Of a stretch of 64,000 nucleotides of DNA, positions 2,702-53,268 are shown piece after piece (positions within the stretch are counted from its first letter, which is position 1; each line of letters opens with the position of its first letter). A program made the translations under genes and the position numbers. Source of the DNA: Diospyros lotus (taxonomy: Eukaryota > Streptophyta > Magnoliopsida > Ericales > Ebenaceae); contig NC_068344.1 in assembly GCF_014633365.1 (NCBI RefSeq), positions 9,749,669-9,813,668 of the forward strand. The letters are read 5' to 3'. The notes beneath the pieces were generated by a model. That model was given only the letters and a program-made list of their open reading frames with translations. It was not told where the DNA came from and did no database searches.

Positions 2702-3802
2702 GTAAGAATCTCACGAACTGTATCATTTGATTGCTACTTTTGTTGTTAATATCTGGTTTCTAAATCAAAAAATAGATAGATCAGTCGTTGCTTACCATTC
2801 CATTTCATGCCATGAATCCTAGTCCTGAATGGCAATAAGGCTTTGTTTGGGAGATATTTAGCAATGGAAAGGAACATGAAAGAGTGTTATGGAAGGTAAT
2901 CTCAATTCCATCTCCCACTCCCGTACACTCTGTAAATGTTGAGTCCCAGAAAATGAATAGATTAAGGCTTCGTTGTTCATGCAGAGAGGCGGGGTGTTCT
3001 AAGGGTGGTTGCCCCTTTTTGTACCGAAATCGATGCCGATGATTTCAGATCCATCACCAAAATGAACCGTCCTTTGTGTGTGTGTGTTTGTGCACGTTGC
3101 CTTGTCTTTTGGGATTACTGTGCTTGGGTGGTCCTCTGCCACTCATGTCTTCTTTAATTTCGACAGATGAGATAATTTGTTAAGTGAAGATTTTACCTTA
3201 CTATGCAGGGCAATGAATTGAACCCACGACTTACTGGTGTGAATTTTAGCTTATCGTGACCCAACCACTTGACTTGTGTCCTAGAGACATGTTGTCTTAT
3301 CTTTTTTTATTTGTGATAGTGTTTGTTAAAATGAGGAATATATCATGGTAAGATCAACTCCAAAGGAAGTTACCATTTTGGGGTGTTAAATTACTCATTT
3401 GCAACTTTGAATAGTGTTATGGCATTCATGAATTATAAATTTGCTCTAATGACAGGTGTCAAAATAAAGGTGTTATTTTAACATTTTTTATTAAAAATAT
3501 AATTAAACCTAACGGTTATATTTTAACATATATAATTTTTATAATGGTCATAATTTAACGGATATATTTTTATAGTCAAAATTTCAAATTTGGTTTGTCG
3601 AAATTCAAATTTCAAATTCAACCATCGAAATTAAAATTTTAAAATTTAATCACCAAATAAAAAATGTAAAAAGTAAAATTCATCTATAAATATTATCATT
3701 TTCCTCATGTTTTCATCCATTTATATTACATTCTCTCCATAAATTCAATATTCCCTTTCTTTTTGACTATTTATTTCCTCATATTTTCATTCATCCATCT
3801 AT

Positions 3803-4460
3803 ATGAATCGTTATTCTAATATTTTAGGAGTGATCCTTAATATTGAGGAAGAAAATGATGATGAATTGGATATGTTATATACTATAACTAGAAGGTCAGA
3901 AACGTCTAGTCATGGATAGAGAAGAAGGTATCATGGTTCCGTTTTAGGCCACAGAATAGTTAATCGTGGTAGAGTTGAAGGCCAAGAAATACTTTACCAC
4001 GACTATTTTGCTACTCCTTGTGTATATGAATGTTTTTTTTTTTCTGAAGAAGCTTACAAATGAGTCGTCATTTTTTTCTTCGAATTGCAAATAAGGTTGA
4101 ATAATACGATCCATACTTTATCCAAATAACAAATGTCGTTGGAGTTCACGGTTTGTCATCCCTTCAGAAAATAACAGTTGTTTATAAAATTCTTGCTTAC
4201 AGAACACCAACATATTCTGTGAATGAATACATAAGAATTGGAGAAAGCATTGTCATATAGAGTCTGAGAATATTTGTGAAAGTTGTTATTCAAGTGTTTG
4301 GCGACCATTACCTGAGGCCACCAAACAATAGAGATATTGCTCGATTGCTACAGACGGGGAACAACTTGGCTTTCTCAGCATGTCAAGGAGTATTGATTGT
4401 ATGCATTGGAAGTGGAAAAATTGTCTAACTGCATGGCAATGTATGTATACTACAAGGTAT
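3803..4460 (+). pseudogene. PIF/Harbinger transposase fragment, left arm
   Basis: Conceptual translation from the ATG at 3803, across several stops and shifts, gives a Harbinger transposase N-terminus. It has an acidic EEENDDELD stretch, then an RRYHGSVLG-like basic motif, then SSLQKITVVYKILAY, NEYIRIGES and VFGDHYLRPPNN. It ends at SIDCMHWKWKNC, which carries the first catalytic Asp of the DDE nuclease (codon 4395-4397). Stops interrupt it after residues such as VE and IVI. The rest of the nuclease is missing because the element is duplicated in inverted orientation here instead of continuing. It is non-functional as a transposase. Confidence 0.75.
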
Positions 4461-4474
4461 GTATACTGGGAAAA

Positions 4475-5077
4475 ATTACAATGCGTGCAATCAATACTCC
4501 CTAATATGCTGGGAAAGTCATGTTGTTCCCCCGTCTATAGCGATTGAGTAATATCGGTATTGTTTGGTGGCCTCAAGTAATGGTCGCCAAACACTACAAT
4601 AACAACTTTCACAAATCTTCTCAAACTTTGTATGGTAGTGTTTTCTCCAATTCTGATGTATTCATCCACAGAATTTGTCGGTATTTCGTAAGCAAGAATT
4701 CTATAAGCAGTTGTTATCTTTTGAAGGGATGACAAACTAAGAACTCCAACGACATCTGTTATTTGGATGAAGTATAGATTATATTGTTCAACCTCATTTA
4801 TAATTTGGAGAAAAAGATGACAACTCATTCGGAACTCCTTTGAAAAAAACATTCATATACACAAGGTGTAGCAAAATAGTTGTGGTAGTCTTTCGTGGCC
4901 TTCAACTCTACCACGACTAATTGTTATGTGGCCTGGAACGGAACCGCGATGCCTTCTTATCTATCCATGATTAAACCTTTCTGACCTTCTGATTATAACA
5001 TACAACATATCCAATTCATCATCATTTTCTTCCTCAATATTGAGGATCCCTCCTAAAATATTAGGATAACGATTCAT
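4475..5077 (-). pseudogene. PIF/Harbinger transposase fragment, right arm
   Basis: This is the mirror copy of the left-arm fragment, reading from an ATG at 5075-5077 down to about 4475. It preserves NRYPNILGGILNIEEEND, LSSLQKITTAYRILAYEIP, VDEYIRIGENTTIQSLRRF and VFGDHYLRPPNN. It is less broken than the left arm: an uninterrupted frame covers 4535-4852. The match to the family ends just after SIDC, at the arm boundary. The two arms differ at many positions, so the duplication is not recent or gene conversion has been weak. Confidence 0.72.
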
Positions 5078-5821
5078 ATAGATGAATGAAAATATGAGAC
5101 AATAAATAGTCAAAGAGAAATGGGATATTGAATTTATAGAGAGAATATAATATAGATGGATGAAAACATGAAAAAAAATTATCATATTTTTAGAAGAATT
5201 TTACTTTTTTTAATTTTTATTTTGGTAGTTAAATTTTGAAATTTCAATTTTGATGGCTAAATTTTGAAATTTGAATTTCAGCGAACAAAATTTAAGATTT
5301 AAAATTTTAACTATAAAAATATATCTAATAAATTACGACTGTTATGAAAATTATATTTGTTAAAATATAACCATTAAGTTTAGTTATATTTTTTAATCAA
5401 AAATATTAAAATAACACTCCTATTTTGGCATCTGTCGTGGGAATAGATTTATAATTCAAGGATGTCATAATAGTGTTCAAAATTGCAAATGAGTGATTTA
5501 GTATCCCAAAATGATAACTCCCTTTAGAGTTGCTCTAGGGTTGAAATCATAAATAAAAATGTAGAATAGTTATAATAAAGTTGAGAAGTATTTAAAATTT
5601 TTTATTAAAGTGTTTGTTAATTTTTTTTTAAATGTATTAGAAATACATGCATTATTATTTTTATTTATAAAGATTAAAATAAATTTATAGATAAATTTAT
5701 TTGAAAAATTTAAATAAAAATTTATTTTATTTTTATCGGTAAATTTAAAAAATATAATAAAAAATATTTTTTATATTTTATTTTTCAATTTTTATCTTAA
5801 ATAACAAATGCTACTTCTTGG

Positions 5822-6185: not shown

Positions 6186-6658
6186 TATGTGATAAATTGT
6201 TGAAAGAAATGGGACTATAAAAATATGAAATATAGCTCTACGATTGTAATTATATCATAAACTTCTACTTTTCAACATGAAAGCATAGCATTCAAAAATT
6301 TTCAGGAACAAATTTACAAATATAATATTTAAAATTGTTGATATATATGGACTAACATAGAAACAATCGTTTTCATGCTATATATATATATATGTATAAA
6401 TAAATGTCATATGAGTTCATATTGAATGAATTTAACTGTCTTAAGTTGAAGAATGGATTTAGATTCATCATAAAGAGATAAATTTAATTTTGTTTGGGTT
6501 CCTAGCAATGGTTGACAATTGTTAGTTTGTGTTTTTTAATTATTTTTATTATATGGAGGAGGTTTATGTCATTTTGTTAAATTGCAAAGGTGTTTTAGGT
6601 GGGTAATGTACGCATTTATAAAAGTTGATTTTGAGTTATAACTTGTAACATGGGAGAC
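6186..6658. other. Unassigned AT-rich DNA
   Basis: Low-complexity AT-rich sequence including short (TA)n runs near 6370-6395. No coding potential or terminal repeats were recognised. Confidence 0.4.
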
Positions 6659-13075: not shown

Positions 13076-13357
13076 ATATATCAATGTATTCTTTTGTAAA
13101 GTGGTGTGATTTGAACTAGATAGAAGTAGTTAGTGTATACCTAGGATGTGGCTATTTTTCTTGATGATATGTGTTTTTGTGTTGTTGGTGAGATAAGTGG
13201 TTGTGGAGGTAGTTTGTTGTTGGACAGGGAGACTTCTCTAATGCAGGTTTATTGTCAAAAAACAGGGGAGCTTCTGCCTAAATTTTTTAAAAAATTGATT
13301 AACTAAATGTAAAGAACGATAAAATGTAGGGCCACGAAACCCGATAGGCTAATTTAT

Positions 13358-15138
13358 TTAATTAACACGAAAAACCTTAGAAGAGCTCATTTTAGTGGTA
13401 ATTGAACCTAAAAAATAATTGAAAAATTAAAAAAAAAAAGTGGGAAGAAATAGCCTATCGGGCTTTGATGATGCCCTATCGGGCTTTGAAAATGCCCTAT
13501 CGGGCTTTGTAGGCGTACAAAGCCCGATAGGCTATTTCTTTTTTTCTTTTTTTTTGTAGTGGTGTTTTTTTCTAGAATAGTTTGAAAACAAGTAAATCAC
13601 TTACTCATTATTCCAAATTTTAATTTATAGAATATGCTAAGATCTCTTTGGTCCAATTTAAACAACACTTGATAGATAGAAGGAGGAACACTTAATCATC
13701 CATCCATTCCACCTTAGTTCCAATGTGATGTATAGAGTTGTTTGATGTGCATTTTGTGTTTAATTAACACGAAAAACCTTAGAAGAGCTCATTTTAGTGG
13801 TAATTGAACCTAAAAAATAATTTAAAAATTTTTAAAAAAAGGGAAAGAAATAGCCTATCGGGCTTTGATGATGCCCTATCGGGCTTTGAAAATGCCCTAT
13901 CGGGCTTTGTAGGCGCACGAAGCCCGATAGGCTATTTCTTTTTTTTTTTTTTTTGTAGTGGTGTTTTTTTCTAGAATAGTTTGAAAACAAGTAAATCACT
14001 TATTCATTATTCCAAATTTTTATTTATAGAATATGCTAAGATCTATTTGGTCCAATTTAAACAACACTTAATAGATTAAGGAGGAACATTTAATCATCCA
14101 TCCATTCCACCTTAGTTCCAATGTGATGTATAGAGTTGTTTGATGTGCATTTTGTGTTTAATTAACACGAAAAACCTTAGAAGAGCTCATTTTAGTGGTA
14201 ATTGAACCTAAAAAATAATTAAAAAATTAAAAAAATGGGAAGAAATAGTCTATCGGGCTTTGATGATGCCCTATCGGGCTTTGTAGGCGCATGAAGCCCG
14301 ATAGGCTATTTCTTTTTCTTTTTTTTTTGTAGTGGTGTTTTTTTCTAGAATAGTTTGAAAACAAGTAAATCACTTACTCATTATTCCAAATTTTAATTTA
14401 TAGAATATGCTAAGTTCTATTTGGTCCAATTTAAATAACACTTGATAGATAGAAGGAGGAACATTTAATCATCCTTCCATTCCACCTTAGTTCCAATGTG
14501 ATGTATAGAGTTGTTTGATGTGCATTTTGTGTTTAATTAACACGAAAAACCTTAGAAGAGCTCATTTTAGTGGTAATTGAACCTAAAAAATAATTGAAAA
14601 ATTAAAAAAAAGGGAAGAAATAGCATATCGGGCTTTGATGATGCCTTATCGAGCTTTGTAGGCGCACGAAGCTCGATAGGCTATTTCTTTTTTTTTTCTT
14701 TTTTTTGTAGTGGTGTTTTTTTCTAGAATAGTTTGAAAACAAGTAAATCACTTACTCATTATTCCAAATTTTAATTTATAGAATATGCTAAGATCTCTTT
14801 GGTCCAATTTAAACAACACTTGATAGATAGAAGGAGGAACACTTAATCATCCATCCATTCCACCTTAGTTCTAATGTGATGTATAGAGTTGTTTGATGTG
14901 CATTTTGTGTTTAATTAACACGAAAAACCTTAGAAGAGCTCATTTTAGTGGTAATTGAACCTAAAAAATAATTGAAAAATTAAAAAAAGAGAGAGGAAGA
15001 AATAGCCTATCGGGCTTTGATGATGCCCTATCGGGCTTTGTAGGCACACGAAGCCCGATAAGCTTTTTTTTTTTTTCTTTTTTTTGTATTGGTGTTTTTT
15101 CCTAGTTTCCCAATAGTTTGAAAACAAGTAAATCACTG
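13358..15138. repeat. Five tandem hairpin units between convergent genes
   Basis: Units begin with TTAATTAACACGAAAAACC at 13358, 13760, 14158, 14533 and 14911, giving spacings of 402, 398, 375 and 378 bases; the fifth is incomplete. Each holds an inverted repeat with outer arms AGAAATAGCCTATCGGGCTTTG and a matching CGAAGCCCGATAGGCTATTTCT, followed by a long T tract. Units 1 and 2 carry three tandem copies of a 'gccctatcgggctttg' module and units 3-5 carry two, which accounts for the size step of about 22-25 bases. The array lies exactly between the 3' ends of the ULP-like gene and the MURA gene. Confidence 0.92.
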
Positions 15139-31114: not shown

Positions 31115-32692
31115 TCTTGTGTAATGCCTCGCTTTTCAAGCGCGTCATAACTTGGGATAATTTTGGGACAATAAATTTTTTTCCTTTCGAACTAATACTA
31201 AACCACATCATTCCTCGTATCCATCCCAAAATTTCCATACATTTATCTCTAAAGAGAATCATCATATACATCTATTGCGGAAGCTAGAATCGAACCTGAC
31301 ATTTTAACATTAATCATAAATCAATTCTTACATCACCGCTTCTCGAACTTAATCCCAATCCAAGGCTATTCATCAATGGAACACAAGTTCCTCAACATGA
31401 CTTAAAACATAACATAAGTTCTCCATTAACATTAATAGATAACATACATCCTCGACTAACATTAATCCTACCAAGAGTTAGACATCATCATCAACCATAA
31501 GGTTATACATCATCATTCCTCAAACGTCAATCATAAATCATATATATCTTACATCATGGACTTTCAAAATGTTCAGATTTCAAAGTAGCAGAACTTAAAC
31601 ACATGGACTACATTACATACATTCATCTCATCATTCATTCATCATACACTTTGCTAAGTGCCATTTCATGCCTCATTCATCATCGTTCCTGCTACAATCT
31701 CTATTTGGAACGTTTGAATATTCCAAGAGCAAAACCCAAGTTAGATGATGAATCATCTAAGTAAGGGTACAAAATCATTTTCATGCATGAATGCAAAATG
31801 TCCTCATTCATTTTCGATTTGAGTCGATCGCACCCAACTACTGCTCCCCATTTTTACAACCCCATTTTCGGGCCGAGGTGTATGGGTGCACCCTTTGGTA
31901 GAGCAGTGGCGCCAATCCATAATCCCAAACCCTTATGCGATGCATGATCAATAATATCATCGTGAATGTATGCACATTTTATCATCAATACATCTAAATA
32001 CAATCTACATGACATATTCACATCAAGACATAACAATATGATAAAATTGTTAACATAAAATTGGGTTTTGGGTTGAACCACTTGCAAACCAAGCATTTTC
32101 CATAAAACTAAATCTATTTGGGAAGTACCACTTACCTCATTCGCATCTCATAACATCTTGATTCTCGTGCCAGGATTCTAACATACTCAATTTGAATCCT
32201 TAACATACCATGGCCATCGCATTTATTCAATAAATCAATATTCTATTTCTTTCCTAATTTCCCTATATTTCTTCATATTTTTCCTCAATAAATCCATTCT
32301 AAATATTTCTCAAATATTTTTCAAATATTTTTCTATAGCAATTCATAAAATAACTTTCCTAATTTTCTAGGGAATTTTACTTACCTTAAATTAGATTCTT
32401 AGGCTTCCTCGGTATGCGTGCCCTGACCTTAAAATGCATGACCGACCTCGATTGCCGCACAAATTCTTGATTCTCGCTCACCACCTCGATTCTCATGCAT
32501 TATCTCAATTTTTGTGCATTACCTCGATACTCGTGCCCAGCCTTGATTTTCGTGCCAAAACCATTTTTCTTGCCAAAATCTATGGAATATTAATAAACCT
32601 CAATTTCCTATTTTTCTAGGATTTTTCTTCATATTTTTCCTATTTTTCCCATTTTTGTTTTTCTCTTTTCTTTTCTTTTTTTGTTCCTTCTC

Positions 32693-33097
32693 CTATTCAT
32701 CTTCTTCTTCACGGCTCCTGCTACCTGCAACGAATAGAGCTTCAACAAGCTCATCCACCATGCCTAGCCACTGCACGCCGCCACTACGTATGCACACACC
32801 GTCGCCGACCGCACCACGACTGCTGTCGCGAGCCGCCATGACCGCAATCTCCCCTACCTCGCTTATCCAACTGTTGGAGTTCACGGCCATGGCCACTACC
32901 TCAGCCTCAGCTACTCCTTTTTGGTGCACAACGTCGCCGAGAGTTGCCTCTCGCGCTGCTGTTGCTGCTTTGCTCGGCTGCTTGCTGCCATCATCCCTGA
33001 AAACGACCGCCATTGCACAGCAGCTTAAAGCTGCTTGCTGCCACTGCCATGGCTGAAATCGACCCAAGCTCTCACGAGCTCTCTCTCTTTCTCTCAT
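32693..33097 (-). CDS. LTR-internal open frame, 134 residues
   Basis: This minus-strand frame begins at 33097, downstream of the LTR TATA box (about 33257-33265, minus strand). It encodes an Ala/Val/Glu-rich, low-complexity-leaning protein (MAVVFRDDGSKQPSKAA, EVVAMAVNSNSWISEVGEI). A shorter version is open in the 5' LTR at 46199-46417 (MAIVLGDDGSKQHSE, AMAVNSSSWIREVGEV). Frame and many residues are shared between the LTRs. LTR pairs share sequence by descent anyway, so this is weak evidence of function. No domain was recognised. It may be a leader-encoded peptide or a by-product of GC-rich R/U5 sequence. Confidence 0.25.
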   Translation of the reverse strand: MRERERARESLGRFQPWQWQQAALSCCAMAVVFRDDGSKQPSKAATAAREATLGDVVHQKGVAEAEVVAMAVNSNSWISEVGEIAVMAARDSSRGAVGDGVCIRSGGVQWLGMVDELVEALFVAGSRSREEEDE

Positions 33098-33325
33098 TCG
33101 ATCTCTCCCAATCCCTCAGCTACTCTTTACATTTACTCTCTTCTCCCACTCTCTGTTATCGGCCACCAACAACAACTCCTAGCTTTCCCTCATCTCTTCA
33201 AGCTCTCTTCTATTTGCTTGCCTCATTTCCTTCTACATTTCTTCTTCATTTCTCTTCTCTATTTATAGAGAAACCACTACCCAAAGCCTTGGCCATCACT
33301 CCATCAAGCCACGCACACACGACAT

Positions 33326-34124
33326 TATTGGAAGTGAGTGTGTGTGGGGGGGGGGGGGGGCTTTCTTTGCAAGCTTTGTTTTCCTTCCTCTAGAAGCTTG
33401 GTGACTTTCCTTCCTAGTTTTTCTTTTCTTCCTCTAAAAGCTTGGTGACTTTCCTAGCAAGTTCTTCTTTTCTTGGTCTCCAAGTTCTAGTCTTACTTGG
33501 TCTCCAAGTTCAAGCTTTTCTTGGTTCCCAAGTTCATCAAGCCTATATATATTTCCCTAAAATTCTTTGAGGTTTGTGAAGAAGAGACTTGATTTTCATT
33601 GAGTTTTGAGACTTGTTTTCTTCTTTGAGCTTTGAAAGAGCTTGTTTTTCCTCGAGTTTTTCATCACTGAGAGCAAGCCCGTCTTGAGTTCTTCTAGCTC
33701 CGGTTGTTCGTGGCCACCGTTTACCGGAGATGTCGTTTCATCCTGCTGAGACAGTTTCCATAGTCTGCTTGCCGCCGGTGCAGGGCGCTAACTGTCTTCA
33801 GGATAGCATAAAGCATGACTCGACCTACTTTTGTTCCTGACTCTTCCACGTTTCAAAAATTTGTTTCTGATTTCTTGCCATTCCAGCTGCAAGCGTTGCT
33901 GTTCAACCGTCTTCTTCGCTTTGTTGTTTTGGTCTGGTAACATTTGTTCCTTTGTTGTTGCTGGTTATAAGCTTCTGCTGCTGTTAATATCAATTGTTAT
34001 AATAGTGGTTAAGTATTGTAGTTTACGTTTCTTATACTGTAGCGGGTTAGAATTGATATATATTCTTATGTCAAGCAAGTTATTTTTGTATAACATCACA
34101 TCTATACTCTCTGTATCCCTAACA
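33326..34124 (+). repeat. Copia 5' LTR
   Basis: It starts TATTGGAAGTGAG (the expected TG has become TA) and ends CCCTAACA. A run of 15 G lies at 33346-33360. A TATATATA sequence at about 33544-33551 is the likely promoter. CTCTAGAAGCTTGGTGACTT and CTCTAAAAGCTTGGTGACTT form a short direct repeat upstream of it. Confidence 0.93.
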
Positions 34125-34126
34125 AT

Positions 34127-34141
34127 CTGAAGACAGTTAGC
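34127..34141 (+). promoter_or_regulatory. Unusual Copia primer-binding site
   Basis: Two bases after the LTR end, where initiator-Met elements carry TGGTATCAGAGC, this element has CTGAAGACAGTTAGC. This is the exact reverse complement of GCTAACTGTCTTCAG inside its own 5' LTR (33787-33801), and the same 15-mer is present in the 3' LTR (about 39237-39251). This suggests intramolecular self-priming of minus-strand DNA. An unusual host tRNA primer is the alternative. Confidence 0.6.
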
Positions 34142-34158
34142 AAGAGAGACTAGAAAAG

Positions 34159-35125
34159 ATGGATGCCCTTACTCCTGCTGATGTTTCTAGTGTTGCTGCT
34201 GGTGGTGTTGCCTCGGGTTCAAACCCGCCCCCTATTGCTGTCTCGGGTCTTTGCTCGCCAACTGCCACTATTTCTGCAATAGCTATTATGCAAGGGCTCG
34301 GTTCAGCCGTGGCCAAGCCAACCCCACATGTGGAGAAGCCACCACTATTTAATGGTGAAGATTTTAAAAGGTGGCAACAGAAGATGTTATTCTATCTGAC
34401 CACGCTGAATCTAGCCCACATCCTCAAAGAGGATTACCCTATTGTCTCGGAAGAGAATATGACCATAGAGACTGTGGCTGCAAGGGAGGCATGGATGCAC
34501 TCAGATTTCCTCTGTAAAAATTATATTCTGAGTGGCTTGGCCGACCCGCTGTACAATGTGTACTGCACTGCGTATGCTACTTCCAAGCAATTGTGGGAGG
34601 CCTTGGAAAAGAAATATAAGCTTGAGGATGCTGGCACTAAGAAATTTCTAGTGGGCAAGTTCTTGGATTACAAGATGGTTGATACCAAATTGGTGGTCAA
34701 CCAAATGGAGGAACTGCAGATCATCGTTAGTGATTTGCATAGCGAGGGATTGGTCATCAATGAGCCATTCCAAGTTGCCGCTGTGATTGAGAAGCTATCG
34801 CCTTCATGGAAGGATTTCAAAAATTATCTCAAGTACAAGCGCAAGGAGCTGTTTTATGGAAGATCTGGCTCTTCGTCTTCGAATTGAAGAAGACAATCGC
34901 AAAGGAGATAAAGTCTCGGATAGATATGAAGCTAAGGCTCACTTAGCTGAGGCTCTCAAATCTCAGCCTAAGAAGCAGCAAGGTAAGAGAGTAAGCGGGT
35001 CACTGGAATCGAAGAAGACCCCTGCCAACAAACGCATTCAAGGCACCTGCTGGGTATGCGGTAAGACAGGCCATAGGGCTATAGATTGCAAACACAAGAA
35101 GGGTCAAAGCTCTGGTAGCAACTAG
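34159..35125 (+). pseudogene. gag: Copia gag
   Basis: It begins at the first ATG after the LTR (MDALTPADVSSVAAGG). It continues with the copia gag core FNGEDFKRWQQKMLFYLTTL, DYKMVDTKLVVNQMEELQ and a KNYLKYKRKEL segment. Near 34850 a one-base shift ends the first frame (stop 34885-34887). The true continuation (MEDLALRLRIEEDNRKGDK) runs in the next frame and carries the CCHC zinc knuckle CWVCGKTGHRAIDC at about 35048-35091, which binds RNA in the particle. A TAG at 35123-35125 separates it from protease in the same frame. Loss of a continuous frame makes it inactive. Confidence 0.9.
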
Positions 35126-36217
35126 CGCAAGTCTAAGCCTTCTTATGCCAATATGGTGGAAGATGATGAGCTCGTTGCAGTCATCATTGAAGTCTGCATG
35201 GTTGATAACGCCAAAGGCTGGTGGATTGATACGGGTGCTTCAAGGCGCATTTGCAAGGATAGATGCTTGTTCTCAATGTATGAGAAGATGGATGGCACCG
35301 AAAAGGTATACATGGAAAATGCCGCAGCCTCGACTATGGAAGGCAAGGGCAAGGTGCTGCTAAAGTGGATATCTGGCAAGATCCTGACCCTCACAGATGT
35401 TTGGCATGTGCCTGAGATTCGTAAGAATTTGGTGTCTGGAATCCTGCTGAACAAAAATGGGTTTAAACTCATTTTTGAGTCTAATAAGTTTACTCTTACC
35501 AAGGGGGGAATGTATGTGGGTTGGGGATATTTAGATTATGGCATGTTCAAGTTGAATTTACATGCCCAAGTGCCTAAGAAAAATAATAAGAATGACTCTT
35601 CTATTTATACTATTGAGTCGTGTGATGTTTGGCATTCAAGATTAGGACATGTCAATTATCGTTCCCTCCAAAGAATGGTTAATCTAGGGTTATTACCTAG
35701 TTTTAACATTGATAAGGGACACAAATGCGAAGATTGTGTTGAATCAAAGTTTACAAGAAAGTCATTTTCATCTGTGGAAAGGAATAGTGAATTACTCGAC
35801 CTAATTCACAGTGATGTTTGTGACATGAAAAGTACTCCCACTAGAGGTGGAAAGAATTATTTTGTCACATTCATTGATGACTGTAGTAAATATTGCTATG
35901 TATATTTACTACGCAGTAAAGATGAGACCTTTGATGTTTTTAAAACATTTAAGGCAGAAGTTGAAAATCAACTGGGAAAGAAAATTAAAGTGCTTAGATC
36001 AGATAGGGGTGGTGAGTATGAATTATCAACTCTGTCTGAGTTTTGTGAATCTCATGGTATAATCCATCAGACGACAACACCTTATACACCACAACAAAAT
36101 GGTGTAGCTGAAAGGAAGAACCGAACTTTGAAGGATATGATAAATTGCATGTTAAATAGTTCGGGTTTACCCCATAATTTGTGGGGGGAAACATTGCTTA
36201 CTGAAATTTTATATTAA
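35126..36217 (+). pseudogene. pol: Copia protease and integrase
   Basis: This stays in frame with the second gag part after the TAG. The aspartic protease active site WWIDTGAS has its Asp at 35228-35230. The integrase zinc-binding region is HSRLGHVNYRSLQRM followed by HKCEDCVESKF. The catalytic core shows IHSDVCDM, FVTFIDDCSKYCYVYLL, RSDRGGEYELS and TPQQNGVAERKNRTL, supplying the DDE triad. The frame closes at 36217 after LLTEILY because of a one-base shift. The correct continuation (ILNRILHKKSGKSPYEVW) is in another frame. Enzyme activity from this copy is not expected. Confidence 0.93.
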
Positions 36218-38208
36218 ATAGAATTCTACATAAGAAGTCGGGCAAGTCGCCTTATGAAGTGTGGAATAGTAAACAACCATCTTACAAAATCTTGAAAGTG
36301 TGGGGGTGTTTAGCCAAGGTGCAGGTTCCTTTACCTAAAAGGACTAAACTTGGTCCAAAAATTATTGATTGCGTCTTTATAGGCTATGCCTCGCATAGTG
36401 ATGCCTATAGGTTCCTGGTAACGAAGTCAGAAATTCCTGACATTAATGTCAATACGATTCTAGAATCTATAGAAGTAGAGTTCTTTGAGAACATCTTCCC
36501 TTTTAAGGGAGATAAACCTAGTGCAAGTGATTCCAAGAGAACTCATGAAGCAACTTCTTCAAAAGGCCAAGATGGGCAGGAAATTGACATCGAGCCTCGA
36601 AGAAGCAAAAGGGCAAGGAAGGCCTCTTCCTTTGGCCCAGATTTTCTAACCTTTGTGTTAGAAGATGAGCCGCAAACCTATGGTGATGCAATGTCATCTC
36701 CTGATGCTCCTTATTGGAAAGAGGCTATTAATAATAAAATGGATTCCATCTTGCAAAACAATACCTGGGTATTAGTCAATTTTCCACCTGGGTGTAAACC
36801 AGTTGGGTGCAAATGAATTTTTAGAAAAAAATTAAAGACCGATGGTACTATTGATAAGTACAAAGCTTGGTTGGTAGCTAAAGGCTATCGTCAAAAAGAA
36901 GGACAAGACTTCTTTGACACATATTCTCCGGTGACAAGAATCACGTTTATCAGAATGATAATTGCTATTGCAGCGTTATACAATTTGGAGATACATTAAA
37001 TGGATGTAAAAACAGCATTCCTGAATGAAGATTTAGAATAAGAAGTCTACATGGAACAACCTGAAGGGTTTGTCATAAAGGGACATGAAAAGAAGGTTTG
37101 TAAACTAGTAAAGTCTCTTTATGGATTGAAACAAGCGCCTAAACAATGGCATAAGAAGTTTTATCACACAATGCTATCGAATGGATTTAAGATAAATGAG
37201 TGCGATAAATGTGTTTATGTGAAAATCATAAACCAAGAATGTGTCATTGTATGCATGTATGTGGATGATATGCTGATAATAGGCACGAATCGAAGTGTTA
37301 TACAATCCACAAAGCAGATCTTGAAATCACATTTTGACATGAAAGACCTCGGTCTTGCTGATGTCATTCTTGGAATTCGAATAATAAGGAATTCTGAAGG
37401 GTATGCTCTTTCTCAGTCGCATTACATAGAGAAAGTGTTGAGAAGATTTGGTCACTTCGAGAGTAAGCCAGCAGTTACTCTGTTTGATCCAAATTCAAAG
37501 TTGAAGAAAAATCATGATGAAGGTGTATCTTCTCTGGAATATGCCAGAGTTATTGGGAGTCTTATGTACATCACGAATTGTATTAGACCTGATATCGCCT
37601 ACTCCGTAGGCAGGCTAGCGAGATACACGAGCAATCCTGGGCATGACCATTGGGGTGCATTGGTTAGGGTACTTAGGTACTTGAAGTACACCCTGAACTA
37701 TGGATTACACTATATAAAATATCCACATGTACTAGAAGGATTTAGTGATGCTAATTGGATCGCCGATAGCTTAGAGACTAAATCAACCAGTGGGTATGTG
37801 TTCACCCTAGGTGGTGCTGCTGTGTTGTGGAAGTCTTCAAAGCAGACGTGTATAGCATGGTCAACCATGGAGTCAGAGTTTATAGCTCTAGACAAAGTAG
37901 GTGAAGAAGCTGAGTGGCTTCGCCATTTCCTCGAAGACATTCCATTATGGCCAAAGCCTGTTAACGCCATTTGCATATACTGTGACAACTTAGCTGCCTC
38001 AATAAGGGCTAAGAATAATGTCTACAATGGAAAGTCAAGACACATTAAGCGCAAGCATAACACTGTCAGAGAGTTGCTCACAAATGGAATAATCTCCATT
38101 GACTATGTGAAGTCGAAAGAAAATCTAGCTGATCCTTTAATGAAAGGAGTGACTCGTGAGCAAGTCAAATTTACATCGAAGGGAATGGGGTTAAAGCCTT
38201 TAAAATGA
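36218..38208 (+). pseudogene. pol: Copia reverse transcriptase and RNase H
   Basis: In one frame except for stops. The integrase C-terminal part has KVWGCLAKVQVPLPKRTKLG and IIDCVFIGYA. RT begins near 36710 (PYWKEAINNKMDSI, NTWVLV). A TGA at 36814 replaces the expected Trp after GCK, and TAA codons sit before MDVKTAFLNEDLE and after it. RT is then open from 37051, with [20 protein letters not shown] and catalytic YVDD at 37258-37269. RNase H shows [34 protein letters not shown] and SRHIKRKHN, and ends naturally at TGA 38206-38208. From 37051 the stretch is 385 codons without a break. Confidence 0.95.
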
Positions 38209-38769
38209 CTTTTTTAGTGGTAACCAAACCTAGTTGACTGGACATCCCAAGATCTAGGCTAAATTGGCCAACTGGCTGGAATAAGTCATAGTTGACACAC
38301 TATGAAACTTTTAGTTTCTCCCCATGTCTCAGAAATTGAAGAGTATGTCCTGTCGACGTTAAAGGGAAGGTTGATATCTTGATATAAGAGGAGTAGTGAC
38401 AGGGTACTCTTAGTCAATGCTTCCCTATATGAGAGTAGAAGTGGGGTCGCTTCTATGAGAACTATTCAATGGCTTGGGTTCTCTAGAGCTCTCATGAAAC
38501 CCAGGATGCTGTCTAGGACCAAAATTGACACAATCGTATAGAACTAAATGGGCCAAGACATGTTGTGTGTGATGTCTAATATCTCGATTTACCTTTAGAA
38601 GGATAGTTCAAGAGCTAGTCTTACTATTTCTTCGATAAATTCGATAGACATTCACTAAGGAAGGTTCAGGTCCAAAAGACACCTTGTTGATGCATAACTT
38701 GTCTATTTGCTCTCAGTGACTCTATGTCGTTTTGTATAATTTTTGAGCACACACACTCATGTGGGGGAT
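38209..38769 (+). other. Copia 3' untranslated region and purine tract
   Basis: A non-coding stretch between RNase H and the 3' LTR. It ends in GTGGGGGAT (38761-38769), which serves as the polypurine tract directly before TGTTGGAAG. No extra gene is seen here. Confidence 0.75.
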
Positions 38770-39569
38770 TGTTGGAAGTGAGTGTGTGTGTGTGGGGGGG
38801 GGGGGGGGGGCTTTCCTTGTAAGCTTTGTTTTCCTTCCTCTAGAAGCTTGGTGACTTTCCTTCCAGGTTTTGCTTTTCTTCCTCTAAAAGCTTGGTGACT
38901 TTCCTAGCAAGTTCTTCTTTGCTTAGTCTCCAAGTTCTAGTCTTACTTAGTCTCCAAGTTCAAGCTTTTCTTGGTTCCCAAGTTCATCAAGCCTATATAT
39001 ATTTCCCTAAACTTCTTTGAGGTTTGTGAAGAAGAGACTTGATTTTCATTGAGTTTTGAGACTTGTTTTCTTCTTTGAGCTTTGAAAGAGCTTGTTTTTC
39101 CTCAAGTTTTTCATCACTGAGAGTAAGCCTGTCTTGAGTTCTGCTAGCTCCAGTTGTTCGTGGTTGCCGTTCACCGGAGAGGTTGTTTCATCCTACTGAG
39201 ATAGTCACCGTAGTCTGCTTGCCGCCGGTGCAGGGCGCTAACTGTCTTCAGGACAACGCAAAGCACGACTCAACCTACTTTTGTTACTAACTCTTCCACG
39301 TTTTAGAAATTTGTTTCTGATTTCTTACCATTCTAGCTGCGAGCGTTGCTGTTCAATCGTATTCTTCACTTTGCTGTTCTGGTCTGGTAACATTTGTTCC
39401 TTTGTTGTTGCTGGTTATAAGCTTTTGCTGCTATTAATATCAATTGTTATAATAGTGGTTAAGTACTGTAGTTTACGTTTCTTATACTGTAGCGGGTTAG
39501 AAGTGATATATATTCTTGTATCAAGTAAGTTATTTCTATATCGCATCTATACTCTCTGTATCCCTAACA
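38770..39569 (+). repeat. Copia 3' LTR
   Basis: It starts TGTTGGAAGTGAG and ends CCCTAACA. It is collinear with the 5' LTR, including the doubled AAGCTTGGTGACTT stretch, TATATATA near 38994-39001 and the GCTAACTGTCTTCAG segment near 39237. The G run is 17 bases (38794-38810). Confidence 0.93.
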
Positions 39570-40272
39570 GACATTCCCCTCAATCTCTCTACAAAACTCT
39601 TAGCCTAATTCCATCGTGCTACAGCTTGCCTCCATCATGCGTACAGACAAAAATCTAGGGCTCCTCCCTACTCCTCACTCCTTACGCGCATGCACAAATA
39701 TATGTATAATATATATATATATATTACACATTTAAAACCCCACCAATTCTCCTTAATTGCACTTAGGGTTTTTCTTTAATTGCATTTCAACCCTTTAATG
39801 CCATAATTTATTTATCATCAAGCCACTCGATATCTTGATTTCTCTAAAATTAATAATCGACCATTACTCGATAAAATCGATTTCGCCCCGATATCCTCAC
39901 TGGCTATTGATTCATCCTGAAATCACCTCAGGGTTGATCGTTACAAAAAAATAGGAGCTCCTCAGGGTTCCGTTGACTTCCCAAAAGTCCCCTATGATAA
40001 TTTAATATTTCAGCCCAAATTATAGCTACAATTTATATGTACCAAAAATCGTCTCAATTCTGATTTCTTTTAATTCCATAAATTCTATCTCGGAATGCTC
40101 ATCGAGACCATGTCATTTTTCAAGGACATTTACACTTCGAGGCATTCCTTGCAGTCAATTCGGTACTTATAACTGCTAGAAATTATACTTAAGACCCTAA
40201 TCCTTTGATAATTTAATCTATAACCCAAATTAAAATTACTCTTGAGCCTTTTAGAAAATTTGAGGTTTTACA

Positions 40273-40284
40273 TTCTCCCCTCAC
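40273..40284 (-). promoter_or_regulatory. Polypurine tract of the gypsy element
   Basis: On the minus strand GTGAGGGGAGAA directly precedes the LTR start TGTAAAACCTC. This is the expected plus-strand priming site and confirms the minus orientation. Confidence 0.85.
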
Positions 40285-44500: not shown

Positions 44501-47428
44501 TATAACGTCCCATTTTTCGAGTACGTCATAACTTGGGACAATAACTTTTTTTCCTTTCGAACTAATACGAAACCACATCATTCTTCGTATCCATCCCATA
44601 ATTTTCATACATTTATTTCTAAAGAGAATCATCATATACATCTATTGCGGAAACTAGAATTAAACTTGACATTTTAACATTAATCATAAATCAATTCTTA
44701 CATCACTGCTTCTCGAACTTAATCCCAATCCAAGGCTATTCATCAATGGAACACAAGTTCCTCAACATGACTTAAAACATAACATAAGTTCTCCATTAAC
44801 ATTAATACATAACATACATCCTCGACTAACATTAACCCTAGCAAGAGTTATACATCATCATTAACTATAAGGTTATACATCATCATTCCTTAAACGTCAA
44901 TCATAAATCATATCTTACATCATGGACTTTCAAAACATTCAAATTTCAAAGTAGTAGAACTTAAACACATGGGCTACATTACATACATTCATCTTATCAT
45001 TCATTCATCATACACTTTGCTAAGTGTCATTTCATGCCTCATTCATCATCGTTCCTGCTACAATCTTTATCTGGAACGTTTGAATATTCCAGGGGCAAAG
45101 CCCAAGTTAGATGATGAATCATCTAAGTAAGGGTACAAAATCATTTTCATGCATGAATGAAAAATGCAAAATGTTCTCATTCGTTTTCGATTTGAGTTGA
45201 CCACACCCAATTGTTGCTTTCTATTTTTACAGCCCCATTTCCGGGCCGAGATGTATGGGTGCACCCTTGGTAGAGTAGCGGCGCCAATCCATAATCCCAA
45301 ACTTTTATGCGATGCATGATCAATAATATCATAGTGAATGTATGCACATTTCATCATCAATACATCTAAATACAATCTACATGACATATTCACATCAAGA
45401 CATGACAACATGATAAAATCGTTCACATAAAATCGGGTTTTGGGTTGAACCACTTGCAAACCAAGCATTTTCTATAAAACTAAATCTATTTAGGAAGTAC
45501 CACTTACCTCATTTGCATATCAAAATATCTTGATTCTCGTGCCAGGTTTCTAACGTACTCAATTTGAATCGTCAACATACCCTGGCCATCGCATTTATTC
45601 AATAAATCAATATTCTATTTTTTTCCTAATTTCCCTCTATTTCTTCCTATTTTTCCTTAATAAATCCATAGTAAATATTCCTCAAATATTTTCCAAATAT
45701 TCCTCCATAGCAATTCATAAAATAACTTTCCTAATTTTCTAGAATTTTTTAGGGAATTTTACTTACCTTAAATTAGCTTCTTAGGCTTACTCGGTATGTG
45801 TGCTATGACCTCAAAATGCATGACCGACCTCGATTGTCTCACAAATCCTCGATTCTCAGTCACCACCTCGATTCTCATGCATTATCTCGATTTTTGTACG
45901 ATATCTCAATTTTCTTGCATTACCTCGATACTCATGCCCAACCTCGATTTTCGTGCTAAAAACATTTTTCTTGCCAAAATCTCCAGAATATTAATAAACC
46001 TCAATTTCCTATTTTTCTAGGATTTCTCTTCATCTTTTTCCTTTTTTTTTCATTTTCCTTTTTCTCTTTTCTTTTCTTTCTTCTTCTTTTTTTTTTTTTT
46101 CCTTCTCCTATTCATCTTCTTATTTGCGGCTCCTGCTACCTGCAACGAACAAAGCTTTAACCAGCTCATCCGCCATGCCCAGCCATAGCACGCCGCCACT
46201 ACTTATGCACGCACCGCTGCCGACCGCTATTGCGAGTTGCCATCGCGGCAACCTCCCCTACCTCGCGTATCCAGCTGCTGGAGTTCACGGCCATAGCCGC
46301 TGCCTCGGCCTCAGCCGCTCCTGCTTCACACACAACGCCGCCAAGAGCCGTCTCTCGCGTTGTTGTTGCTGCTTCGCTATGTTGCTTGCTGCCATCATCC
46401 CCTAAAACGATCGCCATTGCACAACAGCTTAAAGCTGCCCGCTGCCACTACCATGGCCGAAATCGGCCCAAGCTCTCACTAGCTCTCTCTTTTTCTCTCA
46501 TTCGATCTCTCTCAATCCCTCGGCTACTCTCTACATTTGCTCTTTTTTCACACTCTCTGTTTTCGGCCACCACCAACAACTCCTAACTTTCCCTCATCTC
46601 TTCAAGCTCTTAGCTATTTGCTTGCCTCATTTCCTTCTGCATTTCTTCTTCATTTATCTTCTCTATTTATAGAGAAACCACTGACCAAAGCCTTGGCCAT
46701 CACTACATGAAGTCACGCACACACGACATTCCCCTCAATCTTTCTACAAAACTCTTAGCCCAATTCCATCGTGCTACAGCTTGCCTCTATCACGTGTGCA
46801 GACAGAAATCTGGGGCTCCTCCCTACTCCTCACGCCTTACGCGTATGCACAAATATATGTATAATATATATATATATATTACACATTTAAGACCCCACCA
46901 ATTCTCTTTAATTGCACTTAGGGTTTTTCTTTAATTTCATTTCAACCCTCCAACACCATAATTTATTTATCATCAAGCCACTCGATATCCTGATTTCTCT
47001 AAAATTAAAAACTGACCATTATTCGATAAAGTCAATTTTACCCCGGTATCCTCACCGGCTATTGATTCATCTTGAAATCGCCTCATGGTTGATCGTTACA
47101 AAAAAATTGGAGCCCCTTCAAGGTTCTGTTGACTTCCCGAAGGTCCTCTACGATAATTTGATTTTTCAGCCTAAATTATAGCTGCAATTTAGCTATACCA
47201 AAAATCGTCTCAATTCTGATTTCTTTTAATTCCATAAATCCTATCTCAGAACGCTCATCGAGACCATGTCATTTTCTAAGGACATTTACACTCCGGGGCA
47301 TTCTCTATAGTCGATTCGGCACTTATAACTGCTAGAAATTATATTTAAACCCCTAATCCTTTGATAATTTAACCTATGACCCAAATTAAAATTACTCTTA
47401 AGCCTTTTAAAAAAATTGAAATTTTACA
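44501..47428 (-). repeat. 5' LTR of the gypsy element
   Basis: On the plus strand it starts TATAACGTCCC (a degenerate TGTAATGCCTC) and ends AAATTTTACA-like at 47428. It matches the 3' LTR throughout, but without the Copia insert. Its GC-rich block (46120-46480) and the AT microsatellite near 46863-46880 have equivalents at 32700-33060 and 39705-39722. Confidence 0.92.
46663..46671 (-). promoter_or_regulatory. TATA box of the gypsy 5' LTR
   Basis: The minus strand reads TATAAATAG followed by 'agaag', about 760 bases from the LTR start. The same sequence is present at the corresponding point in the 3' LTR (33257-33265) and in the solo LTR (23239-23247). Confidence 0.6.
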
Positions 47429-47433
47429 TCTTG

Positions 47434-49740: not shown

Positions 49741-51584
49741 CAAGTCTTCTCACTTTTATACATGCAACATTAAATTTATACTAATCTAAATTCCTAATTT
49801 TTGAAATTTCACTTGAACCCCAAAAATTTTTAAAAACTCTCGATCATCTCCCTATTCCAAAACAAAAAAAAAAAAATATTAATTTCACCCATTAAATTCC
49901 TCAAATCCACAAATTACCAATAAAAATAAATAATCTCAATTAAATTTTTCCAAAATACAAGAATGTTACATTGAGTACCACATCCTCGCATACCCTTCCA
50001 AGGTGGGCAAGAAAACCTAGCAGCACATAGTGTTGATGAAAGCTTGAATGAGAATATGAGAGAAGAAAAGGTCCACATGATTGATCAGGTCAATAGTGTT
50101 ATCATAGAGCTTGATGGTTGGGATATGAAACATTTTTAGGGAAACTCAATCATAATTGCACGATTAGGGGTTGATTTGGGCCCCAAAGTCAAGGCTATCA
50201 TTTTCTCCTCATCACACTTGTAGTTTCGTTCTCCATTAGTCATAATTGTTTTTCTTGAGGGCTCTTTCCTTCTAAGGTAGTGAGCAAACAAAATCCTCTT
50301 TCTTTTTTGAGTACTGTCACTTTTAGTCATTATAATGAGAGTAAGCTTCTCTCTTATTCCATTGGGATATGCAATCTTCTTGGCGAGATTGTTTTGGCTA
50401 GAGGTGGTTCCCATCTTGCTAGCGGATATAAGTCGTTAATAGTTTGGTGAGATGTTGAACTTGGCTCTCCAATTAGGTAAATTGGTTTGGTGAAGGGGGA
50501 TATTTTTTGAGTCATTTTGACTTTGGTTTGGATCACATTGTTACTCCTATTTCGGATGGTTTCCACCTTGATAGCTACAAGTAAGGTCGTGTCTTAAGGC
50601 CATGGTAGCGAGCTACTTGAATAGTATGAAGGCTCTGTAATATCAAGTAGAGTAGAGAAATAATAAAGGCCATATTAGGTGCTAAATAATGATATTATGG
50701 GACTAATCACCAAAATTTTCCTTGATAAGAGTATTTGTAAAAAAAAAAATGAGGTTAGATCTCCAAATTTAGCCTCAAATGCTCAAGTTAATAAGGAATA
50801 TTAGTGAAATGATATGTAAAAAGATAAGTTAGTATTTTCTACTTGTAGGGGTTAGGGTCCTTATATAGGTTGAACTAGGCAGGATAGTTGGCATTATCTT
50901 TGAGATTCCTAGGCTTGATAGGTACGAGGTGATGTAGATTTTCTTAGGTTAAATCAACATAATAGTGAATCTCCCCAATCCATTTTGAATCTTCTAGGAT
51001 TGAGATCTAGGAATTAAATCTATTGATTTATCTCTCAGGTCAAAGTTGGGTAGAAAGACATAGGGTCACAATTCATCGTTTCCAAGGGTGGTTTAGTAGT
51101 TTCACCCCTTTGGACGATCTCTTATTAGGTAGGTCATGAGAAGAAATTCTTTGATCTTAATTGGAATTTTTTCAAGAAATTAAAAAATTAACAATTAGAA
51201 AGAATACGTAATGATCTCTAAAGAAAGAACCCAAGATAGTTTTTTCCATTACTGGCTTTGTAGTTACTAGTTCAGTCAATGACTATCGTTACTTTAAGGT
51301 TTCATATTTTTTTATTTTATATATTTATTACATTATAATTTTTAATAAAATTTTGAATGTGAGATTAATTATAACAAAATAAAAATATTTAATATTTACT
51401 ATAAACAATTTAACTCAAAAAATAATTTATTGAAAACATAAACATAAAAGCAATATTATTTATTCCTAGAAATTTTGCATAAACTTTTTATGTATATATC
51501 ATTATTATTTATACATTGTTATTATTTATTTATTTTTTCGTTCCCTCTATAAATTCTTTAACCAAAATATGGCACAAGAAATAG
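49741..51584. other. Unassigned sequence
   Basis: Minus frames of 92 codons (50136-50414) and 70 codons (50354-50566) are Lys/Thr-rich and show no known motif. A retroelement interior is possible from the context. 51300-51540 is very AT-rich. No terminal repeats were identified. Confidence 0.3.
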
Positions 51585-53268
51585 TTGGGCTCTGATTCAG
51601 TGCTGTAATGACTGGAATACCCTTTTCCATAACCAAGTACCAACCCTACTATACCAGGGGTATAACAGGCAACTGGACCAATATAAAACCAAAATATCCG
51701 ATCCAAGCTAGGGTTCCAAAATGGCAAAGATTTTCAAGGTGACTTATTTTTCCAAGGTTTAGTACCGAGAGTCCTATTTTTTCCAAATTTCTCAAATATC
51801 CGATCCAAGCTAGGGTTCCAAAATGGCAACCAAATTGGGGATGAGGCTCGTTGGGGAGCTGGGAATTTGTGGAGGCTGTTGCCCCTCTCCATAGATGCTG
51901 ATCTCTGCCTTCGCAGATCGATCGGTCGCCTGAGAGCCGATGATTCATATCCTAAACTCAACAGCTCCACTCGGTAAGAATCTTGCGAACTGTATCGTTT
52001 GATTGCGGCTTCTGTTCCTAAGATCTGGTTTCCGAATCAGAAAATAGACACATCGACCGTTGCTTTCCATTCCATTTCATTCCATGAATCCTAGTCCCAA
52101 ATGGCATTAAGGCTTTGTTTGGGAGAGATTTAGCAACGGAAAGGAACAGGAAAGAGTGTAATGGAAGGTAATCTCAATTCCATCTCCCACTCCCGTACGC
52201 TCTGTAAATGTTGAGTCCCAGAAAACGAATAGATTGAGGCTTCGCTGTTCGCGCAGAGAGGCGGGGTGTTCTGAGGGTGGTTGCCCCTCTCTGTACCAAA
52301 ACGATGCCGATGATTTCAGATCCATCACCAAAATGAACCGCCCTTTGTGTGTGTGTGTTTGCGCACGTTGGTTTGTCTTTTTGTTTGTAGTAGCATTTGT
52401 TAAAATGAGTAAGATAACACGATAAGCTTAAAATATTTCTCGAATCAAAATATAAAATGATCAAGATAATGTTGTCTATTCAAAGATTTTTATTAAAGTG
52501 TTTGTCAAATTTTTTAGTATGTTCTAGAGAACTTATACGTCATTTTATTTTTATGTGTAAGGATTAAGATAAATTTATTTAGAGAGATAACTTTAGGAGA
52601 GACATTAAAGTTTAATATGAAGTGTATGAATTTAAATAAAGATATGATAAAAGACAGAAATATATGGAAGTCTAGAATTCATGTAATCGACCTTATATAG
52701 TGGGATAAAAATCGGATATGTTGTTGCTGTTGTTGTTTATTCAGAGAGATAAATTTCTTTAGAAAAACTTAAATAAGAAGTTATTTAATTTTTTATTTGA
52801 TTGTCAGATAAATTTAAAAAATATAATAAAAAATATTTTTATTTCTTATATTTTATTTTTTCAATTTCTATTTTGACTAACAAACACTATCTTTGTGGCT
52901 AATAAACACTACCTTAGGGCTGTGATGATAAGTTTTCTTGGTCCAGATCGGTGTTAGCTGGGGGAGATGTGACCCTTTTCTTGGCGGGGTGACTCAGATG
53001 GCCAGCGACCCGATAAATTATTCGGGTTAGAGAGAGAGAGAGAAATTGCTAGGCAATCGGAGTCTGCAGCCATGGTGGGGTCACCCCTCTTCAACCTGCT
53101 ACTGTGATCAATCTAGATCTGAGCCTCAAACCTTAATATGTTTATAATATATGTATTTATATACGTATATATTGCTTGGTGCAATTTAATTTAATTGACT
53201 TATTTGTTTCTAAGTTGATGTGATTATAAGTATGGGAAAGCCTATGTGGTAAGTTATTATATAAAATG
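51585..53268. repeat. Low-copy segment, copy B (uninterrupted)
   Basis: Collinear with copy A (2325-6185) but without the 2.2-kb inverted-duplication element; the empty site is TAA at 52423-52425. Copy B shows an internal direct repeat of about 85 bases ('atccgatccaagctagggtt' starting near 51698 and 51799). The match to copy A ends at about 53268, where the FAR1-type sequence block begins. Confidence 0.8.
51825..51973 (+). pseudogene. Exon-like stretch in copy B
   Basis: Counterpart of 2553-2701: 149 bases open in the same frame and ending at GTAAGA. The peptide includes GDEARWGAGNLWRLLPLS and RRSIGRLRADDSYPKLN. The product is not recognised. Conservation of the frame in both copies is the reason for listing it. 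Confidence 0.3.

Follow-up and report, generated by a model that had tools for sequence, protein, structure and literature searches.

A stretch of 64,000 nucleotides of the Diospyros lotus genome (contig NC_068344.1, positions 9,749,669 to 9,813,668 of the forward strand; hereafter the window) harbours a long terminal repeat (LTR) retrotransposon of the Ty1/copia type whose primer binding site (PBS) is complementary to a segment of its own LTR, and the best reading of the evidence, to which we assign a probability of about 0.8, is that elements of this kind prime reverse transcription with their own RNA. Self-priming is supported by the covariation of primer segment and PBS across seven primer types, by the lack of an exact host transfer RNA (tRNA)-like partner and by the positions of TATA boxes relative to the primer segment. 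A preliminary description of the window had proposed priming from an internal LTR site; these three lines of evidence favour that proposal, and the absence of a good own-LTR partner at five of the 15 readable LTR–PBS junctions among related loci counts against it.

Results

The PBS (CTGAAGACAGTTAGC, 34127–34141) is separated from the end of the 5′ LTR by a spacer of 2 nt (AT, 34125–34126) and is exactly complementary over 15 nt to a segment (GCTAACTGTCTTCAG) that lies at 33787–33801 in the 5′ LTR and recurs unchanged at 39237–39251 in the 3′ LTR, all on the forward strand and at the positions that the preliminary description had given. No other exact complement of the PBS occurs in the window, and allowing up to three mismatches adds a single site, at 6431. 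With matches required to begin 0–5 nt past the LTR, a 15-nt match was obtained in none of 20,000 Markov-resampled LTRs (the largest was 14 nt, in two of them) and in none of 115,348 25-mers from the window (both strands, element left out; largest 13); chance is excluded as the source of the 15-nt complementarity. The canonical tRNA site is lacking, as originally described: the first 25 nt past the 5′ LTR contain no TGG, and therefore no CCA-ended tRNA would be able to pair there. ARAGORN detected no tRNA genes in the window, and nothing in 33300–34200 reached an Rfam gathering score.

Related elements were sought in the host genome (a 630-Mb assembly in 43 contigs) with the reverse transcriptase (RT) peptide motif QAPKQWH, which, searched as DNA, occurs at 90 places (control, 0). 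Eighteen of these loci were examined, eight as 10-kb loci and ten as 801-base pieces picked for codon variety, with one locus of the window's family (L033) left out of the count and with the window itself and one place at a contig edge set aside. Using probes derived from the paired copies and from L071, we could read the LTR–PBS junction in 15 of the 18, and ten of these pair with their own LTR (L064, L065, L068, L069, L070, L072, L074, L075, L078 and L081, among which L069 is in the window's family). No recognisable junction was found in L067, L077 or L079; 15 of 20 letters in L079 agreed with one probe, which we judged to be no junction, and the reversed control reaches 15 in one of 13 pieces. 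Together with the window, the paired copies comprise seven primer types (5′–3′: CTAACTGTCTTCAG, ATCTGTCTTCAG, AATATCCTTAAG, AAAATACTCTTAAG, ATACTCTTTTAAG, ATCTTGCTTTCAG and AACAAAGTCTTAAG), and in every type the element's own PBS matches its segment (with one to three mismatches in some copies); types 4 and 5 differ by a two-base insertion that is present in both segment and PBS. The types were defined by the segment and not by LTR similarity: the LTRs are 79% alike between types 4 and 5, 80% between two type-1 copies and 68% between two type-2 copies. RT identity to the window's element is 86–92% (by stretches) within the same family, 74–84% in types 2 and 6 and 48–72% in types 3, 4, 5 and 7.

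To this set we applied a permutation test in which every PBS was scanned against every LTR over 5,040 assignments, the best-match choice being repeated for each pairing. The true PBS-to-LTR assignment scored 90 (mean 69.9), a value equalled by none of the others; with alternative copies, the true assignment scored 87 and one other assignment equalled it. Against their own LTR, the 11 paired copies scored 11–14 of 14 and L071 scored 8; off-family scores averaged 9.4 with a maximum of 13 (124 pairs). As a second control, 14-mers located deeper in each element were compared with its LTR, and in eight of the ten testable paired copies none of them equalled the match of the PBS. The covariation that had been proposed as a check on self-priming is thus present, with PBS and LTR segment changing together across the seven primer types, with exceptions at the five unpaired junctions and in the forward test described below.

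Within the window's own family, a genome search with 33700–34200 yielded 40 scored matches among 172 candidates, of which 30 were taken up as loci, two being the LTRs of the window's element itself. In 26 copies (window included) all 15 letters could be read at both sites, with no Watson–Crick mismatch in two copies, one in 11, two in six, three in six and four in one; if G·U is counted as a pair, 14 of the 26 have no non-pair, ten have one and two have two. Base 15 of the LTR segment is G in 29 of 30 loci, and base 15 of the PBS, never C in the 25 other copies, is T in 23 of them (pairing as G·U in 22 of those), so we take the family core to be 14 nt (33788–33801 in the LTR and 34127–34140 in the PBS). 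This core is perfect in 13 of the 26 copies, despite the other copies being 81–86% identical to the window across the region. PBS base 15 is seemingly not rewritten from the LTR, which suggests that the templated primer is at most 14 nt. Over 28 loci (L005–L032, 20–27 readable per site), mean minor-allele fractions were 0.029 in the primer core, 0.047 in the PBS core and 0.051 in gag, and elsewhere 0.155 in U3, 0.153 at 33554–33739 and 0.089 at 33817–34100; the TATA box averaged 0.052, compared with about 0.155 in the flanking LTR. The primer region is a low-variation island in the LTR, surrounded by an 83-base stretch that is free of insertions and deletions in the 30 loci.

The complementarity might serve structure only, with LTR and leader joined in a helix that aids packaging, dimerisation or contact between the ends, and with another RNA priming at or near the site. 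The folding predictions are compatible with such a role: in the leader (33576–34165), the PBS helix belongs to the minimum-energy fold, with a mean probability of 0.65 as opposed to about 0.33 for a local hairpin (33740–33804) whose 3′ arm contains the primer segment and which is an alternative fold to the PBS helix. The PBS region could pair with the segment copy in the 3′ LTR as well, and Tf1 requires extra LTR–leader helices, according to the available part of PMC10085805. A purely structural function is nevertheless unlikely, in that each of the 11 paired copies begins to pair 2 nt past the LTR, where the 3′ end of a primer must sit, and that the complement of a tRNA 3′ end (TGG) is absent from the window copy.

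The hairpin was also considered in its own right. Its z value is −2.4 in the 5′ LTR copy and −1.1 in the 3′ copy, or −1.6 and −0.4 when 81-nt versions are taken, the pairing of its arms was equalled by 16 of 5,000 simulated sequences and three of 3,108 60-mers from the window, and it is little mutated in family copies. We rejected it as a general feature and retain it for the window's own family only, because five family copies give a modest z of −0.9 to −1.7 and other types lack a consistent upstream arm. A splice-site reading of CTAAC...CAG/G (here and below, the slash marks the cut) was likewise dropped because the CTAAC context is missing in other primer types.

In all 11 paired copies the PBS starts 2 nt (AT or TT) past the LTR end, the terminal CA of the LTR being intact in eight and mutated in L065, L068 and L072, and the base following the segment, which was not used in matching, is G. 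The primer ends AG/G in ten of the 11 (ATG/G in L072), and six continue GAYAG, with near variants in the other five; in the window, the bases past the putative cleavage point are GATAG (33802–33806). The nearest upstream TATAWA lies 163–357 nt from the primer, and none is found 15–60 nt upstream in any of the 11 copies. The window's presumed promoter is a TATA box at 33543–33553 (TATATAT at 33544 and 33546), from which transcription would start about 30 nt further on. Because the primer segment lies this far below the nearest TATA box, it appears to be internal, unlike that of Tf1, a placement that is well supported by sequence. A Tf1-like arrangement, in which transcription starts at the primer segment and the RNA's 5′ terminus itself acts as primer, would call for a TATA-less start; such starts may occur, but with the distant TATA box conserved in the window's family we regard this arrangement as improbable.

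The primer could instead be half of a host tRNA or some other small RNA of the host, the LTR match being secondary, and half-tRNA primers have been reported for Osser, Bryco, Gymco-II and Bianca, all of them copia elements (PMC6317226, available part). The comparison with host tRNAs that the preliminary description had recommended was made by searching the whole host genome for AACTGTCTTCAG placed 4–34 nt before a tRNA B box, and returned no site (exact pattern in uninterrupted tRNA genes, with inexact or intron-bearing tRNAs and other small RNAs outside its scope). Priming by a host RNA would, moreover, leave unexplained why different PBSs are each matched by their own LTR, and it seems very improbable. 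Chance or a functionless inverted duplication, for which the five partnerless junctions might be cited, is strongly disfavoured, with none of 20,000 simulated LTRs reaching 15 nt and no other of the 5,040 assignments matching the true one.

The distance from the primer end to the LTR end is 67–78 nt in types 3, 4, 5 and 7 and 256–357 nt in types 1, 2 and 6, and in the latter group (six of six copies) a variable segment lies between CAGGGC and AGG. A pattern for this module, GCAGGGC-N9-15-AGGACAGYG (searched as GCAGGGCN{9,15}AGGACAGYG), has 80 matches in the genome versus four for the reversed control; by hand count, about 62 of the 80 carry the window-family segment or near variants, seven carry the type-6 segment and 11 carry others. 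There is, in our estimation, about an even chance that these elements use an internal, exchangeable primer, that is, a variable 12–15-nt stretch cut from the middle of the transcribed LTR, with the PBS following its changes and, in one group of types, with fixed flanks of CAGGGC ... AG/G, often GACAGYG. Such a geometry would be distinct from that of Tf1, and would need either a poly(A) site in the short stretch of LTR left after the cut (67–78 nt in four types) or donation of the primer in trans by one RNA of a pair.

Several observations weigh against self-priming. Five of the 15 readable junctions (L066, L071, L073, L076 and L080) have no good partner in their own LTR (8–10 of 14); the outcome that the preliminary description had named as contrary, a PBS that is kept while its LTR complement is lost, is therefore seen at these five, with own-LTR pairing at the other ten. 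The five may be decayed or truncated copies. Type-2 copies pair at 11 of 14 only, with 7 of 119 and 4 of 139 internal 14-mers being equally good, and the PBS of L075 fits type-1 LTRs (12–13) better than its own (11). Single scores are biased because primer sites were chosen as the best own-LTR match, and types 4 and 5 are not independent because of the 79% likeness of their LTRs. Conservation of the PBS core is not unusual relative to gag, and other stretches are better conserved than either site, the primer core ranking 178 and the PBS core 400 among 1,192 windows. Extending the folded leader to 34400, which adds 235 nt of gag, lowers the probability of the PBS helix to 0.27, and the stability of the leader as a whole does not exceed that of its shuffles (z −0.05). 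Finally, in a forward test, PBSs were predicted from six of the other module sites (501 bases each): in L082, L083 and L086 the probes matched 12–13 of 20 letters at best and no junction could be recognised, in-register matches are 10 of 14 in L087 (nine contiguous; 339 of 2,000 shuffles as good) and 9 of 14 in L085 (1,759 of 2,000), and the L084 PBS matches at 12 of 14 directly after the LTR end (0 of 2,000 shuffles as good), giving one clear success among three testable sites, a weak result.

In four of the unpaired loci (L066, L073, L076 and L080), CAACAAT is followed by a CTTAAG- or CTGAAG-like PBS (TTTAAG in L073) near the LTR end, and the 600–770 nt upstream in the same locus contain no good match to it; these four may be decayed copies or may have a different primer source.

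Discussion

From the observed complementarity, spacing, covariation and position below the TATA box, we infer a route in which transcription would start near 33575 and the RNA segment CUAACUGUCUUCAG (33788–33801) would pair with the PBS at 34127–34140. The RNA would then be cut after ...UUCAG/GAUAG, perhaps by the element's own RNase H, by analogy with Tf1, and the freed 3′-OH would be extended through the 2-nt spacer into the LTR. If the cut were made in cis, in the template molecule, the first-strand complementary DNA (cDNA) would end at 33802, at a length of about 325 nt; with a primer supplied in trans from a second RNA molecule, the cDNA would continue to the 5′ end of the RNA. An internal primer would also mean that the cut parts the 5′ section of the template from the rest, and strand transfer would therefore have to differ from that of both tRNA-primed and Tf1-type elements. 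Priming by a piece of its own RNA would free the element from host tRNA. With primer and PBS covarying within a single plant genome, these expectations can be tested directly from cDNA ends, and self-primed families can be recognised in a simple way.

Self-priming had been presented in the preliminary description as a property of the Tf1 group, which is incomplete. According to the available part of Neumann et al. 2019 (PMC6317226), the TAR lineage of plant copia elements was predicted to self-prime, as had been proposed earlier for its members Houba and Osr-1 (Fourf is also listed in the TAR row), with the self primer said to be freed by cleavage of the transcript's 5′ LTR. TAR elements, like the window's element, are Ty1/copia with a PBS complementary to their own 5′ LTR; the definition applied there (an own-LTR complement of at least 10 bp, 0–5 bp past the LTR) compares with 15 bp, 2 nt past the LTR, in the window, and no difference between the two was established from that part of the source. 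TAR membership is most likely, judging from domain order and the self-complementary PBS rather than from a tree; the homologues listed for the element (at least 120) bear generic names or none. The window's element is a further case of the predicted kind, and self-priming is not new in kind; the available part of PMC6317226 does not mention the covariation, the internal placement of the primer or the variable segment with its flanks. Among the texts available, our literature search found no treatment of self-priming in plant copia besides that paper, and a search of the literature for an RT peptide motif returned nothing.

Two other groups invite comparison, both through the available parts of the sources. 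The Tf1/sushi group (Tf1, Tf2, Tj1 and Tosmo; PMC7175516, PMC4600332 and PMC10085805) likewise has a PBS beside the 5′ LTR that pairs with its own RNA, and likewise needs a cut: in Tf1, bases 1–11 of the RNA pair with the PBS and the RNase H cut falls between bases 11 and 12 (PMC7175516), a structure of three duplexes being required as well (PMC10085805). However, these are Ty3/gypsy chromoviruses with a chromodomain, whereas the window's element is copia, with RVT_2 and with its segment well below the TATA box. The half-tRNA-primed copia elements named above (PMC6317226) share the lack of a whole-tRNA PBS, and the window's element differs from them in having no exact host tRNA-like partner.

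Structure and surroundings of the element

The element is an old, frame-broken Ty1/copia copy on the forward strand, and its borders are firm. The 5′ LTR (33326–34124, 799 bp; starting TATTGG and ending CCCTAACA, with terminal CA) and the 3′ LTR (38770–39569, 800 bp; starting TGTTGG) are flanked by a target-site duplication, GACAT, at 33321–33325 and 39570–39574, and an empty site with a single GACAT lies within 46690–46770 (around 46725), in a diverged duplicate of the element's flanks. Because the divergence between the LTRs (Kimura two-parameter distance, 0.072) is below that of the flanks (0.093 and 0.108), the element probably inserted after the flanks were duplicated. The duplicated stretches (31163–33325 plus 39570–40273, and 44533–47429) are about 89–90% identical, in the same orientation and 13 kb apart.

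Comparison of five pieces of the broken reading frames with Pfam gave the order gag, CCHC, Pol_BBD, gag_pre-integrs, rve, SH3 and RVT_2, which is the Ty1/copia order, with integrase ahead of RT. These comprise a gag reading frame (Retrotran_gag_2, 34159–34887), a CCHC zinc knuckle (35042–35095, residues 86–103 of the open reading frame starting at 34787), Pol_BBD, GAG-pre-integrase and integrase core (rve) domains (35153–36217), a retroviral polymerase SH3-like domain (36259–36816) and an RT piece (37051–38208), in which RVT_2 covers residues 1–141 and the remainder has no Pfam match. In the same five pieces, protease and RNase H models found no match, and no chromodomain was among the matches; by its position in the usual layout, RNase H presumably occupies the remainder of the RT piece. 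A polypurine tract (GTGGGGGAT, 38761–38769), read from the sequence, adjoins the 3′ LTR.

Relatives were also sought outside the host. IMG/VR yielded 5 and 41 pattern matches, none of which was confirmed; the GTDB genomes yielded two contigs, neither with an LTR repeat; plasmids gave only three distant matches; and phages gave no relatives. An assembly contig of Robertmurraya kyonggiensis (L001, 1–4351; coverage 0.3 in its name) carries a copia pol that shares 53% identity with the RT of the window's element and is probably contamination. Two 'plasmids' of 4.6 and 5.2 kb, NZ_CP115454.1 (Kitasatospora cathayae) and NZ_CP115302.1 (Streptomyces camelliae), carry a copia-type RT that is 43% identical over 95% of the query.

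Elsewhere in the window, 3351–5536 is a 2.2-kb palindrome (82% in self-comparison) that is missing from the other copy of the surrounding stretch (51580–53267) and looks like a fold-back insertion, and 13357–15137 is a tandem repeat with units of roughly 400 bp that are 84–93% alike.
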